Of a stretch of DNA of 64,000 bases, positions 5,758 through 60,858 are shown piece after piece (positions within the stretch are counted from its first letter, which is position 1; every line of letters begins with the position of its first letter). Position numbers and translations under genes: made by a program. This DNA is from an uncultured delta proteobacterium. Lineage in GTDB: Bacteria > Desulfobacterota > Desulfovibrionia > Desulfovibrionales > Desulfovibrionaceae. The DNA lies in contig LT599018.1 of assembly GCA_900079685.1 (NCBI GenBank), forward strand, positions 1,572,970 to 1,636,969, given 5' to 3'. The notes under the pieces were generated by a model that saw nothing but the letters and a program-made list of their open reading frames with translations, did no database searches and was not told the origin of the DNA.

Positions 5758-7217
5758 TCTCCCATCCGGCTGTATCCGGCGGAACCATCTGTCCCGCCCG
5801 TATTGTTACGCATTCCCTCTTCCCCCATCGCCGCCAGAATTTCCCCGACGGCGCGGTCCGCATGGCGGCCCAGCCGTTCGCGGAACTCCGCGTAGGCGGC
5901 GGTGCGGGCCGCTGCATCCGCCGCCGCCAGCCGGCCCGCCAGTGAGACGAGAGAACGCCGCTCCGCGTTGGTCAGCACCCGGCGGTCCTCCTCGGGCACG
6001 CCGTTCCGCGCCTGGGCCGCCAGGCGGCAGGAGGCGGTCTGCTCCTCGGTTTCCCCCCTGGCTTCATCCGCCACGGCTTCCGCCGGGTCGCGGAGGAGAA
6101 CCGTTTCCCGGTGCCGGTACACGGCCGCGCGCAAGCCGAGTTCCGTTTCCAGCACGCCGCGCAGGGACGCACTCGCAACGGCGCGCAGGGTCTTTTCCAA
6201 TTTATGGATAACGGACGAGAGCGCGGGCAGGTCCATGGCCGCGCTCTCCTTAATCACCACCGCGTGGGACTCGTACAGATCCGCATGGCGCAGCAGCTCT
6301 TCCGCCGCCTTTTGCTCCCCGGCATCCAGGAACTGCACGGCCAGGAGGCGCAAGCCGTTGCCGTCCCCGGTCAGGGCCGCGGCGGTTTCCGCGTCTTCCA
6401 CGTCCCCGGCCAGAACGGCCGCGCGGTCGCGCCGCGCGGCGTCCTCCATCAGTTCCCCGGCTCGCGCATCCCCGTCAAAGCGGCAGCGCTCGCGTTTTTG
6501 GCGCGCGGCGTCAAACCCCAGCGCGCTCATGGCCGCCATGGCCTTGCCCGGATCCGCCGCGTACAGGCTGCCGAAGACGATATCCTTGAGGGCGAGCGTA
6601 TCGAGCCCCAGCCGCTTGTGCGCTTCCCCCGGCGTAAAAAGCCCCTGACCCACCGCGAGCACATGGACTTCCTCCATCTGCGCCGCATGGTCCGCGTATT
6701 GTTCCGGCTCCATGGAGGCCGCGCGTAAAATGCCGCCCCGCCGTGCGTCGTGCTGTTCAAGGGCGTGCTCGCGCCGTTGCGTGTCCTCAAACGCGGCCAT
6801 GCGCAGGCAAACCGCCCTGCCCCTGCCTTTGGCCCAGACGCGGAAGGCCTCCCCGGCTTCCGCATCCATCGCGCTCTCCGCCATGGCCTCGTCCACGGCC
6901 CGCGTGTGGTGCGCGACGCAGTCTTTCGCCACATTCGCCGCGCGCGCCCCCCTCCGTTCGGCTTGCGCGGTTTCCGTCCATTGATCCATCAACAGTGTGT
7001 AGGTGTTTTGCGCTTCCACCAGCGCCGTGTGCGCCATCTGGCGCCGTTTTTGGCGTAGCCAGACGCCAAGAGCGTCGTCATTTCGCAAGACGCCAAGAGC
7101 GTCGTCATTTCGCCAGACGCCAAGAGCGTCGTTATTCCGCAAGGCGCCGAGGGCGGAATCGTCCCTCCCCCTTTCTTCCGTATCCGGCATGAGTGCTTCG
7201 CCCGGTATGCGCATCAC
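5748..7217 (-). CDS. large Ala-rich phage protein, internal virion protein candidate
   Basis: 489 residues, mostly predicted helix, rich in Ala, Arg and Glu. The first ~55 residues contain a tandem nine-residue repeat (DDALGVWRN type). The rest resembles no family I can name. It starts at GTG or the adjacent ATG, overlapping the stop of the preceding gene (GTGA), so translation is probably coupled. Its place between a small internal-protein-like gene and the tail fibre is where T7-like phages encode ejection/core proteins. The function is inferred from position only. Confidence 0.6.
   Translation of the reverse strand: MMRIPGEALMPDTEERGRDDSALGALRNNDALGVWRNDDALGVLRNDDALGVWLRQKRRQMAHTALVEAQNTYTLLMDQWTETAQAERRGARAANVAKDCVAHHTRAVDEAMAESAMDAEAGEAFRVWAKGRGRAVCLRMAAFEDTQRREHALEQHDARRGGILRAASMEPEQYADHAAQMEEVHVLAVGQGLFTPGEAHKRLGLDTLALKDIVFGSLYAADPGKAMAAMSALGFDAARQKRERCRFDGDARAGELMEDAARRDRAAVLAGDVEDAETAAALTGDGNGLRLLAVQFLDAGEQKAAEELLRHADLYESHAVVIKESAAMDLPALSSVIHKLEKTLRAVASASLRGVLETELGLRAAVYRHRETVLLRDPAEAVADEARGETEEQTASCRLAAQARNGVPEEDRRVLTNAERRSLVSLAGRLAAADAAARTAAYAEFRERLGRHADRAVGEILAAMGEEGMRNNTGGTDGSAGYSRMGECL
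7061..7168. repeat. 27-bp tandem repeat inside the 489-residue phage gene
   Basis: Three near-identical 27-bp units start at 7061, 7088 and 7115 (agacgccaagagcgtcgt...), and a fourth degenerate unit starts at 7142. The length is a multiple of three, so each unit adds nine residues of the (N)DDALGV(W/L)R type. Units 1 and 2 differ by one base, which points to recent slippage or expansion. Confidence 0.9.
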
Positions 7218-7738
7218 CGCTGCCCCATGAAGGTTCCGCCGCCGGAATTGAGATAATTGCCCCAGAGCGCGTCGCGGCCTCCGAAGGTGTTCATGGGATC
7301 CAGCAAATTGGCGGTCACGCCGCTCATTGCCGTGCGCGCCCGCTGTTTGGCCGCCTTTTTCTGCACGTTCCAGTCAAGCGCGTTCATATCCCCGGTATAC
7401 AGCGCCTGCAGGGCGGAAACCTCGCCGTCCGCCTCGATGGAGGCCAGAACGTTGACCGGCGTTCCCTCGTTGACGTCCACACCCCGCCCGCCATAGGCCG
7501 CCATTGTGGACGACGCCTTGCGCGCCGCTTGCAGCCGCTCCAGGTAGGCGTTGTTCCGCCCTTCCTGGAGCGCGTTTTTACGCCTGGCGTCCGCGAACTT
7601 GGCGCTTTTGTTCGCTTCCGCGTAGGCGCTGAGGCCGCCCAGGATATTCCCGGTGGTCCCCATGCCCTCTCTGTACGATTCCGCGATGGGCTTGAACGGC
7701 CCCGCGTGCGCCGTGCCGCCTGATCCTGCCATAGTCAT
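7214..7738 (-). CDS. phage internal virion protein A-like (T7 gp14-type candidate)
   Basis: 174 residues from an ATG after GGGGAGGA; a second ATG two codons on has even better spacing. The N-terminus is Gly/Ala-rich (GTTGNILGGLSAYAEANKS), then a helical segment (RRKNALQEGRNNAYLERLQAARKAS). Its size, small-residue-rich start and place just before a large helical gene resemble T7 gp14-type core proteins. No conserved motif proves this. The open frame extends upstream to 7804, but without a ribosome-binding site. Confidence 0.5.
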   Translation of the reverse strand: MTMAGSGGTAHAGPFKPIAESYREGMGTTGNILGGLSAYAEANKSAKFADARRKNALQEGRNNAYLERLQAARKASSTMAAYGGRGVDVNEGTPVNVLASIEADGEVSALQALYTGDMNALDWNVQKKAAKQRARTAMSGVTANLLDPMNTFGGRDALWGNYLNSGGGTFMGQR

Positions 7739-54247: not shown

Positions 54248-55555
54248 GTGAACTGGCGCGAGCACGTAAAGAACAACACGGTCACAGCCGCCGAGGCGGC
54301 CGCTCTTGTTGCTTCCGGCAACAGGGTTGCCGTGGGGCATGCCGCCGGCGCGCCGGATATCCTCACCCGCGCCATGGTGGCCCGCGCCGATGCGCTCCGC
54401 GACGTCGAGATCACCCACATGGTCGCGCTGGACGAATGTCTATACTGCCGCCCGGAATACGAAAAGAGCTTCCGCTTCAACAGCACCTTCATGAGCCGCC
54501 CCACGGTGGACGCTCTGGCCGAAGGCCGGGCCGATTACACGCCCATTTTCTTTTCGCAGATCCCCATCCTGATGCGGGACCCGTCCTTCCCCATCGACGT
54601 GGCCATGATTATGGTCACCCCGCCCGACGACCAGGGCCGGGTAAGCCTCGGCGTCTCCGTGGACTACACGCTGCAAATCGCCCTTTCCGCAAAAATCACC
54701 ATCGCCCAGGTCAACAGGCACATGCCCTACATCGTGGGCGGCGCGCTGATCGACGTTTCGGAAATAGACCGCTTCGTGTTCCACGATTCTCCTTTGCCCG
54801 AGTCGCCCCCGGCGGCTTTCGGCGATACGGAGCGGGCCATCGGCGAACAGATCGCGAACCTTATCCCGGACGGGGCCTGCTTGCAGCTCGGCATCGGCTC
54901 CATTCCGGACGCCGTGCTGGCCGCGCTGGACGGCAAACGCGACCTTGGCGTGCACTCGGAAATGATCTCCGACGGCGCCATGCGCCTGGTGGAAAAGGGC
55001 GTCATCAACTGCTCGCGCAAGACCATCCACCAGGGGAAAATCGTCATCTCCTTCGCCATGGGAACATCTTCCTTCTATGCTTGGCTCGACCGCAATCCCA
55101 TGATAGAAAGCTATCCTGTCGACTACGTGGACGACGCGCGCGTCATCGGCCGGCACGACAATCTGGTCGCCATCAACTCCGCCATGTCCGTGGATCTCCT
55201 CGGGCAGGTGGCCGCCGAGTCCATAGGCACCAGGCAGTTTTCCGCCGTGGGCGGCCAGGTGGATTTCGTGCGCGGCGCGCGCTTCTCCCAGGGCGGGTTC
55301 AGCATCATCGCCATGCCGGCCACCGCCGCCGGCGGCGCGGTTTCCCGCATCTGCGGCACATTCCCGCAAGGACAAGCCATTACCACAACCCGGAACGACG
55401 TGGACTATATCGTGACCGAATACGGAACCGCCTATCTTTGGGGAAAAACGACCAACCAACGGGCGGCGGCGCTCATCGCCATCGCGGCCCCGGAATTTCG
55501 TGAGGAACTCGCCCGTGAAGCCCGCGACGTCTACGGCTTCAAGGTGAATATTTAA
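54248..55555 (+). CDS. 4-hydroxybutyrate CoA-transferase type enzyme (copy 2)
   Basis: 435 residues from a GTG (MNWREHVKNNTVTAAEAAAL, read with GTG start). The catalytic Glu lies in LGVHSEMISDGAMRLVEKGV. FAMGTSSFYAWLDRNPMIES and FSAVGGQVDFVRGARFSQGG match copy 1. It is the first gene of the sigma-54 controlled operon with acyl-CoA dehydrogenase, EtfBA and FixCX, and likely activates a short-chain hydroxy- or unsaturated acid. Confidence 0.88.
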   Translation: MNWREHVKNNTVTAAEAAALVASGNRVAVGHAAGAPDILTRAMVARADALRDVEITHMVALDECLYCRPEYEKSFRFNSTFMSRPTVDALAEGRADYTPIFFSQIPILMRDPSFPIDVAMIMVTPPDDQGRVSLGVSVDYTLQIALSAKITIAQVNRHMPYIVGGALIDVSEIDRFVFHDSPLPESPPAAFGDTERAIGEQIANLIPDGACLQLGIGSIPDAVLAALDGKRDLGVHSEMISDGAMRLVEKGVINCSRKTIHQGKIVISFAMGTSSFYAWLDRNPMIESYPVDYVDDARVIGRHDNLVAINSAMSVDLLGQVAAESIGTRQFSAVGGQVDFVRGARFSQGGFSIIAMPATAAGGAVSRICGTFPQGQAITTTRNDVDYIVTEYGTAYLWGKTTNQRAAALIAIAAPEFREELAREARDVYGFKVNI

Positions 55556-60485: not shown

Positions 60486-60496
60486 CCCCCCCCCCC
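60486..60496. repeat. run of 11 C
   Basis: Eleven C residues stand in a non-coding gap between fixX and the CGGC protein gene. Such runs are slippage-prone and are a common place for assembly errors. Confidence 0.8.
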
Positions 60497-60530: not shown

Positions 60531-60554
60531 GGCCGGGAGATTTCTCTCCCGGCC
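60531..60554 (-). terminator. Rho-independent terminator of the dehydratase operon
   Basis: On the minus strand GGCCGGGAGA-GAAA-TCTCCCGGCC is followed by TTTT, 25 bases after the stop of the CGGC protein gene. Confidence 0.88.
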
Positions 60555-60579: not shown

Positions 60580-60849
60580 TCATTTGGGAATGGAGCGGAG
60601 TATTTCCTCGAGACGCAGACACTCTTCTTCCGACGAGGTCACCGTCTTGCCGTGTTTCCCCTGCAAATCCTCATGTGAGGCGCAGGCGGCGGAACACCCG
60701 CACAGCACGATAACGTGGTCAAAGGGCCCGTCGTCGTCGCCCGTTTCCACAAACTCGGTATCCGGGAAGGCGGTTTGCAACCGTTCGACGACCGCCTTCC
60801 GGTCATAGCGGGGGTTGCAGCCCCCGCAATACTTCACCCGGACTTTCAT
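60580..60849 (-). CDS. small CGGC-motif protein downstream of the dehydratase
   Basis: 89 residues. It begins MKVRVKYCGGCNPRYDRKAV and contains VIVLCGCSAACASHEDLQGK, giving Cys pairs CGGC and CGC..C. The strong Cys pattern and thioredoxin-like size (Rossmann-like secondary structure) suggest a redox or Fe-S role. It starts 10 bases after the dehydratase stop and is co-terminated with it. I do not know a published function. Confidence 0.65.
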   Translation of the reverse strand: MKVRVKYCGGCNPRYDRKAVVERLQTAFPDTEFVETGDDDGPFDHVIVLCGCSAACASHEDLQGKHGKTVTSSEEECLRLEEILRSIPK

Positions 60850-60858
60850 TGAGCGGAA

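Follow-up and report, generated by a model that had tools for sequence, protein, structure and literature searches.

AbfD, the 4-hydroxybutyryl-CoA dehydratase, performs a difficult radical dehydration in butyrate-forming anaerobes of gut and soil, and its cluster is unusual and oxygen-labile. In the accessible parts of the literature we examined, we found no explanation of how this cluster is built and kept up. In the stretch of DNA analysed here (64,000 nucleotides of contig LT599018.1, hereafter the window), a gene for AbfD is followed at once by a small gene for a cysteine-rich protein of an unnamed family, which we call the CGGC protein. What might such a protein do for such an enzyme? 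The initial annotation suggested a maturation or redox partner of AbfD. If this were so, a small, co-encoded and as yet unnamed factor would offer a direct handle on the building and upkeep of the AbfD cluster.

The CGGC gene and its locus

The ORF in question starts with ATG and encodes an 89-residue, cysteine-rich protein with the motifs YCGGCNPRYDR and LCGCSAACASH, exactly as first described (Table 1). Its reported start 10 bases after abfD holds as well: the ORF begins at the tenth base, 9 nt (bases 60850-60858) lying in between. Judging by sequence comparison, this ORF is a real gene, far beyond chance, with relatives at 23-55% identity adjoining AbfD in other bacteria.

Table 1. Positions of the CGGC gene, its motifs and neighbouring features in the window.
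Feature	Position	Strand	Basis
Four-cysteine CGGC protein, 89 aa, unnamed family	60580..60849	-	ORF, homologues, no Pfam/NCBIfam family
Motif C8-G9-G10-C11 (CGxC), after predicted strand 1 (model residues 2-8)	60817..60828	-	149-sequence alignment, model
Motif G51-C52-x3-C56 (GCxxxC), after predicted strand 3 (model residues 45-50)	60682..60699	-	149-sequence alignment, model
abfD, 4-hydroxybutyryl-CoA dehydratase, 481 aa; presumed cluster ligands C98, C102, H290, C297	60859..62304	-	PF11794, PF03241, 1U8V match; ligands assigned after 1U8V
GC-rich hairpin followed by TTTT, probable shared terminator	60531..60554	-	Sequence; scan gave plus orientation only
abfT-like CoA-transferase	54248..55555	+	PF02550, PF13336

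The gene directly 5' of the CGGC ORF can be assigned as abfD: its product carries the HpaB_N and HpaB domains of Pfam, and its best solved relative is 1U8V, described as ‘gamma-aminobutyrate metabolism dehydratase/isomerase’ (794.7 bits). The four residues that we take, after 1U8V, to be the cluster ligands (three Cys and one His) are all present in the window protein. A second AbfD-family gene of the same genome (L144, G000:C1:1137158-1137961), located outside the window, has the cluster ligands too, its open frame being given as 349 aa only.

A GC-rich hairpin of 10 pairs starts 25 nt past the stop codon of the CGGC gene and is followed by TTTT on the minus strand. The initial annotation saw here a terminator shared with abfD; the hairpin and its tail agree with that, while the consensus scan reported the hairpin in the plus orientation only, and a terminator common to both genes is thus likely, not proven. 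Beyond the hairpin, 11 C bases stand in a row (60486-60496), where a one-base assembly error is possible.

On the other strand, the genes between 54248 and 60364 (plus) run in one direction, convergent with abfD and the CGGC gene. They encode the AbfT-like CoA-transferase, an acyl-CoA dehydrogenase, two ETF subunits, an FAD-dependent oxidoreductase and a small ORF. Such a set of genes indicates that the window probably holds a 4-hydroxybutyryl-CoA pathway region. The oxidoreductase is FixC-like by position; the small ORF, which contains a Cys-rich stretch, gave no Pfam match at E<=0.001.

A family with four conserved cysteines

Across 149 distinct sequences of the family, C11 and C52 are kept in all, and C8, G9, G51 and C56 in 148 each. 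The sole exception at C8 is one gap, probably belonging to a TGA-interrupted copy (L210); C50 of the window protein falls outside the conserved columns. We rejected a CX5R phosphatase-type loop (C11 to R17) as the core of the protein, R17 being missing in 18 of the 149 sequences. Selenocysteine was likewise rejected in two copies. In L145, the TGA is a stop codon only. L210 has an in-frame TGA where the second CGGC residue should stand (about 1522-1524), and SelA is found in the genome; the family relatives have no stop in the match, and the downstream RNA folds of L210 contained, in our judgement, no convincing element. A nonsense mutation or a mistake in the assembly is the probable origin of this TGA, rather than Sec.

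The AlphaFold model of the protein (pLDDT 87.9) has the order E-H-E-E-E-H, with the motifs following strands 1 and 3. Alignments with flavodoxin- or Rossmann-like folds suggest that the two cysteine pairs would converge at an edge of the sheet. A Foldseek search with the model returned no match at E<=0.001. In the VIA structure comparison (best Z 6.7), only generic alpha/beta folds were found, SelW and Nfu structures being absent from the matches listed, and a sequence search of solved structures (PDB) gave nothing usable for the CGGC protein. No Pfam or NCBIfam model covers the family, which therefore merits a name.

For the window protein, the Pfam and NCBIfam searches gave sub-threshold Rdx/SelW matches only: 14.5 bits to the N-terminal part against a cut-off of 22.6 for PF10262 (E 0.043), and 13.9 bits against 34.2 for TIGR02174. 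At E<=0.1, each of the two models matched 8 of 50 family members, with best E values of 0.013 and 0.0048, respectively. Such a likeness raises the alternative of a thiol-redox partner, in which CGxC and GCxxxC would form a SelW/Rdx-like dithiol relay that keeps the AbfD cysteines or FAD redox-active and carries no cluster. The CxxC motif lying directly after strand 1 in the model of a small alpha/beta protein is indeed what the Rdx/SelW-SelT-SelH proteins have. Unlike them, however, the CGGC protein stays far below the curated cut-offs, possesses a second near-invariant motif, GCxxxC, and has AbfD and pathway genes as neighbours. Moreover, a stop replacing any of the four cysteines was not seen in the 149 sequences, and a dithiol relay would leave a NifU-domain neighbour, described below, unexplained. 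We consider this alternative unlikely. The CGGC domain (PF08821) has the letters CGGC and several conserved cysteines in common with our family, but the window protein did not match it at E<=10, and only 1 of 50 members did (E 0.079).

Co-occurrence with AbfD, gene order and fusions

In the window's phylum, an AbfD-family gene (E<=1e-80, the threshold of our phylum surveys) is present in 135 of 394 genomes and a CGGC match in 70. Except for one, all these carriers are also AbfD-positive (69 of 70; Fisher p about 1e-37), the exception (G442) having a partial CGGC match (E 0.002). When the 66 AbfD-positive, CGGC-negative genomes were rescanned with a better profile, two further copies appeared, both adjoining AbfD, which brings the carriers to 71 of 135 and leaves 64 AbfD-family genomes without CGGC; for the 259 AbfD-negative genomes, the search relied on the smaller profile A1 alone. 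An initial scan of genome contigs with the window CGGC protein itself confirmed no relative. Measured against the AbfD genes listed for 96 of the 135 genomes, at least 49 of 77 CGGC copies lie within 400 bp of an AbfD-family gene on the same strand (37 downstream and 12 upstream), and at least 58 lie within 20 kb, 58 of 58 on the same strand; for 19 copies no AbfD gene is listed on the contig, where one may still be present.

The clostridial phylum of Clostridium brassicae (G504) yielded 24 CGGC matches in 20 of its 299 genomes. Two of them were dropped, L216 because it looked MiaB-like and L217 as a fragment with three stops, so that 22 copies in 18 genomes remained. An AbfD-family gene stands within the 1.5-kb flanks of 19 of these 22 copies (18 of 19 on the same strand) and a NifU-domain gene within those of 8. 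AbfD-family genes occur in 51 of the 299 genomes, including all 18 CGGC carriers (Fisher p about 8e-16). As read by eye from the table, CGGC is found in 18 of 33 genomes with an AbfD-family member of >=56% identity and in 0 of 18 that have only members of <=47%. A family rarely next to abfD, the outcome which the initial annotation held to be adverse to its proposal, is thus not what these neighbourhood surveys returned. In the family of G632 (45 genomes), the G632 protein retrieved 13 copies from 12 other genomes, and AbfD was seen in the flank of all 13; the copy in G659 also belongs to the phylum sample.

In the Synergistota, the link between CGGC and AbfD is looser. CGGC is present in 10 of 185 genomes, and AbfD lies within the flank in three of the ten (L285, L287 and L292), as assessed in flanks some of which end early at contig ends. 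One of the carriers (G496) was reached via its AbfD locus, L090. By eye, the neighbours of L286 are AbfT-like and 3-hydroxyacyl-CoA dehydrogenase-like, and that of L289 is a MaoC-like protein.

A set of named genomes was composed of the best 80 of 580 confirmed AbfD loci in GTDB genomes, corresponding to 79 genomes when counted by record title. Most are clostridia; Desulfovibrio, Synergistaceae, Treponema, a planctomycete, Fusobacteriaceae and Calditrichales are also represented. Within flanks of up to 8 kb, 39 of these 80 loci have both a NifU-domain gene and CGGC, 12 NifU only, 10 CGGC only and 19 neither. CGGC is therefore found in 39 of 51 loci with NifU vs 10 of 29 without it (Fisher p 0.0003). 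The NifU-domain gene directly precedes CGGC on the same strand in 33 of the 39 loci, the matched stretches being -5 to 60 nt apart, and does not in 6. As to AbfD, it lies within 400 bp of CGGC on the same strand in 30 of the 49 named loci with CGGC, further away on the same strand in 10, and on the opposite strand in 9; in 8 of the 49, the two are more than 1.5 kb apart. Distances in the flank surveys (clostridial, Synergistota and named loci) were measured from one matched stretch to the next and may differ from those between the gene ends themselves. The 31 loci lacking CGGC come from 30 genomes, and when these were searched as a whole, a copy was detected elsewhere in 10. Among the 79 genomes of these best 80 loci, 59 thus have CGGC (49 near AbfD and 10 elsewhere), and 20 have no detectable copy. 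Locus L087, with a shortened copy (E 0.001), was scored as lacking CGGC. Its 49-residue remnant (7209-7358, minus strand), where the CGGC motif continues directly into the second one, lies beside a NifU-domain gene and resembles an internal deletion of a CGGC gene.

A common order in clostridia is abfD, NifU domain, CGGC, abfT. In C. brassicae, CGGC stands directly behind the NifU-domain gene, and two clostridial neighbour genes that were tested match PF01106 (E 4.6e-23 and 1.9e-26). An abfT-type gene lies directly 3' of the CGGC gene in many clostridia, or is fused to it. In Clostridioides difficile (L141), the order is abfD, CGGC, CoA-transferase. CD2341 is abfD and CD2339 is cat2 in PMC3510511, in the accessible part of which the name CD2340 is absent; from the order in L141 and this naming, CD2340 is probably the CGGC protein. 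The 1.5-kb flanks of 32 CGGC loci of the window's phylum, the window and G055 included (L001-L003 and L034-L062), contained no NifU-domain gene, and the only PF01106 match of the window genome maps some 150 kb away from the window. A NifU partner is hence not general.

In some genomes, CGGC is joined in a single open frame with another domain: acetyl-CoA hydrolase/transferase (L064), MaoC (L137), FabA-like (L082) or crotonase (L211). Further joined frames were recognised by eye, L066 being like L064, L121, L111, L109, L101, L104, L112 and L199 MaoC-like, and L081 and L084 FabA-like, while the frames of L281 and L282 continue into a further sequence resembling a CoA-transferase. All of these are open frames read from DNA, in which separate starts are possible. 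Assuming the usual functions of their families, the fusion partners would act just before or after AbfD. Such evidence brings in a second alternative, a structural tether or channelling adaptor that would dock AbfD to the CoA-transferase and crotonyl-CoA hydratase, its cysteines holding structural zinc. The joining of CGGC to a CoA-transferase and to three unrelated hydratase-type domains agrees with this, as does the frequent position of CGGC between abfD and abfT. However, 32 of 49 named copies have an open frame below 150 aa, co-transcribed neighbours can fuse without any function, and the NifU neighbour would again have no explanation; we regard this alternative as rather improbable.

The AbfD of the window is 84-86% identical to three Sedimentibacter and 83-85% to three Desulfovibrio records among the best 80 of 580 loci. 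Within its own phylum sample, the closest relative belonging to a different family reaches 74%. None of the 17 genomes of the same family listed in the AbfD search had a match, and of 99 relatives searched only two have CGGC, the window genome and G055, in both cases beside abfD. The Sedimentibacter-like identity of AbfD and this restriction of CGGC to two genomes fit a joint transfer, and abfD and CGGC seem to have travelled together. G055 has a second, divergent copy elsewhere (L003), a paralogue with the pattern CGHC ... CACxxxC; no AbfD was seen in its flank, and an ORF with several Cys pairs follows.

AbfD and CGGC distances also correlate over 126 pairs encoded in one locus (Spearman 0.34 vs a highest value of 0.13 in 500 permutations, species relatedness being ignored). 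A passenger gene or regulator, carried in acyl-CoA operons and having no direct action on AbfD, would suit the 20 of 79 genomes without CGGC and the copies that by eye lie away from AbfD beside other acyl-CoA genes, but it is very doubtful in view of this correlation and of near-exclusive co-occurrence in two phyla despite drift of the CGGC sequences to a median identity of 27% among the same pairs.

Overall, we consider it very probable that the CGGC protein is a partner of AbfD, because co-occurrence is near-exclusive in two phyla, adjacency is conserved and fusions join it to pathway-type enzymes. This part of the initial annotation stands. Its other part, a maturation or redox function, is supported indirectly, by the four cysteines and the NifU neighbour.

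A possible role in loading or repair of the AbfD cluster

Which service, then, could the CGGC protein render to AbfD? Our tentative preference, held at somewhat less than even confidence, is that it loads or repairs the AbfD cluster. We favour this reading because the cluster of AbfD is unusual, four cysteines are kept in the CGGC protein, and a NifU-domain gene lies directly upstream in many clostridia. The scenario would be as follows. The CGGC protein would be a dedicated accessory factor of AbfD, whose two cysteine pairs lie in adjacent loops, at the same edge of a small alpha/beta sheet, and make up a single site. What this four-cysteine site carries may be an Fe-S cluster or a precursor of one; a metal or a dithiol would be alternatives. 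Docking on AbfD, the protein would insert or repair the [4Fe-4S] cluster, which is labile, exposed to the substrate and ligated by three Cys and one His. The protein would do so together with the NifU-domain carrier of the operon or, where there is none, with a general carrier. It may also be physically seated within a complex of the pathway enzymes, as fusions to enzyme types acting before and after AbfD suggest. Those fusions would suit a tether and a maturase equally well.

The scenario has parallels among known systems. Nfu and the C-terminal domain of NifU (PF01106) are small, contain a CxxC motif and have a role with Fe-S clusters; the CGGC protein is likewise small with CxxC, and the gene for such a domain directly precedes its own in many clostridia. 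Unlike Nfu, it has two cysteine pairs instead of one, is tied to one enzyme family and has no match to PF01106 (window protein and 50 members). Enzyme-dedicated metallocofactor maturation factors, as a class, are Cys-rich and encoded beside one target enzyme, and in both respects the CGGC protein resembles them. We know of no dedicated maturation factor for the HpaB/AbfD family, and none was named in our literature search, which covered mostly journals other than subscription ones. The abfD and abfT homologues of C. homopropionicum are described in PMC4591306 with no mention of the small protein, nor does the CGGC protein appear in the accessible parts of PMC3510511, PMC8364193, PMC7078158, PMC7845616, PMC12316311 and PMC11204068.

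Several observations limit cluster loading as an explanation. Against it stand the 20 of 79 AbfD genomes (best 80 of 580 loci) in which CGGC is not detectable; CGGC is therefore not universally required. Weighing on the same side are the 64 of 135 AbfD-family genomes of the window's phylum that have no CGGC, the lack of a NifU-domain gene in the flanks there, the opposite strands or wider spacing in some of the named loci, and the looser link in the Synergistota. AbfD expressed alone in E. coli is active. Activity is also tabulated for the dehydratase of Metallosphaera sedula in the accessible part of PMC7078158. Taken together, these two cases indicate that the factor is not absolutely required. 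The CCHC set is kept in 154 of 154 aligned AbfD-family members (the window included), with or without a CGGC neighbour, and 20 of 20 members without adjacent CGGC in this alignment keep it. In a set of 16 divergent relatives whose genomes lack CGGC, CCHC is present in 12, CCYC in two, CCQC in one and none of the ligands in the last. The ligands are thus ruled out as the sole predictor of CGGC: they are kept in many AbfD relatives without it, and having the cluster is not enough to account for where CGGC occurs.

Keeping in mind these limits, it is tempting to carry loading and repair one step further. The CGGC proteins might represent a new four-cysteine Fe-S family which, alone or with a NifU-domain carrier, is dedicated to cluster insertion and repair for one radical enzyme, the first such case for AbfD/HpaB, and which also docks pathway enzymes, so that repair would take place inside the working complex. 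From the sequences compared here, we see in this broader picture a speculative possibility, less likely than not.

A last comment concerns a group of clostridial loci (L109, L110, L112, L114, L115, L119 and L121) in which the CGGC gene lies, by eye, beside an acyl-carrier-protein-like cluster gene, with a NifU-domain gene near. The CGGC frame in these loci is mostly longer and partly MaoC-fused, and they possibly belong to a different acyl pathway.
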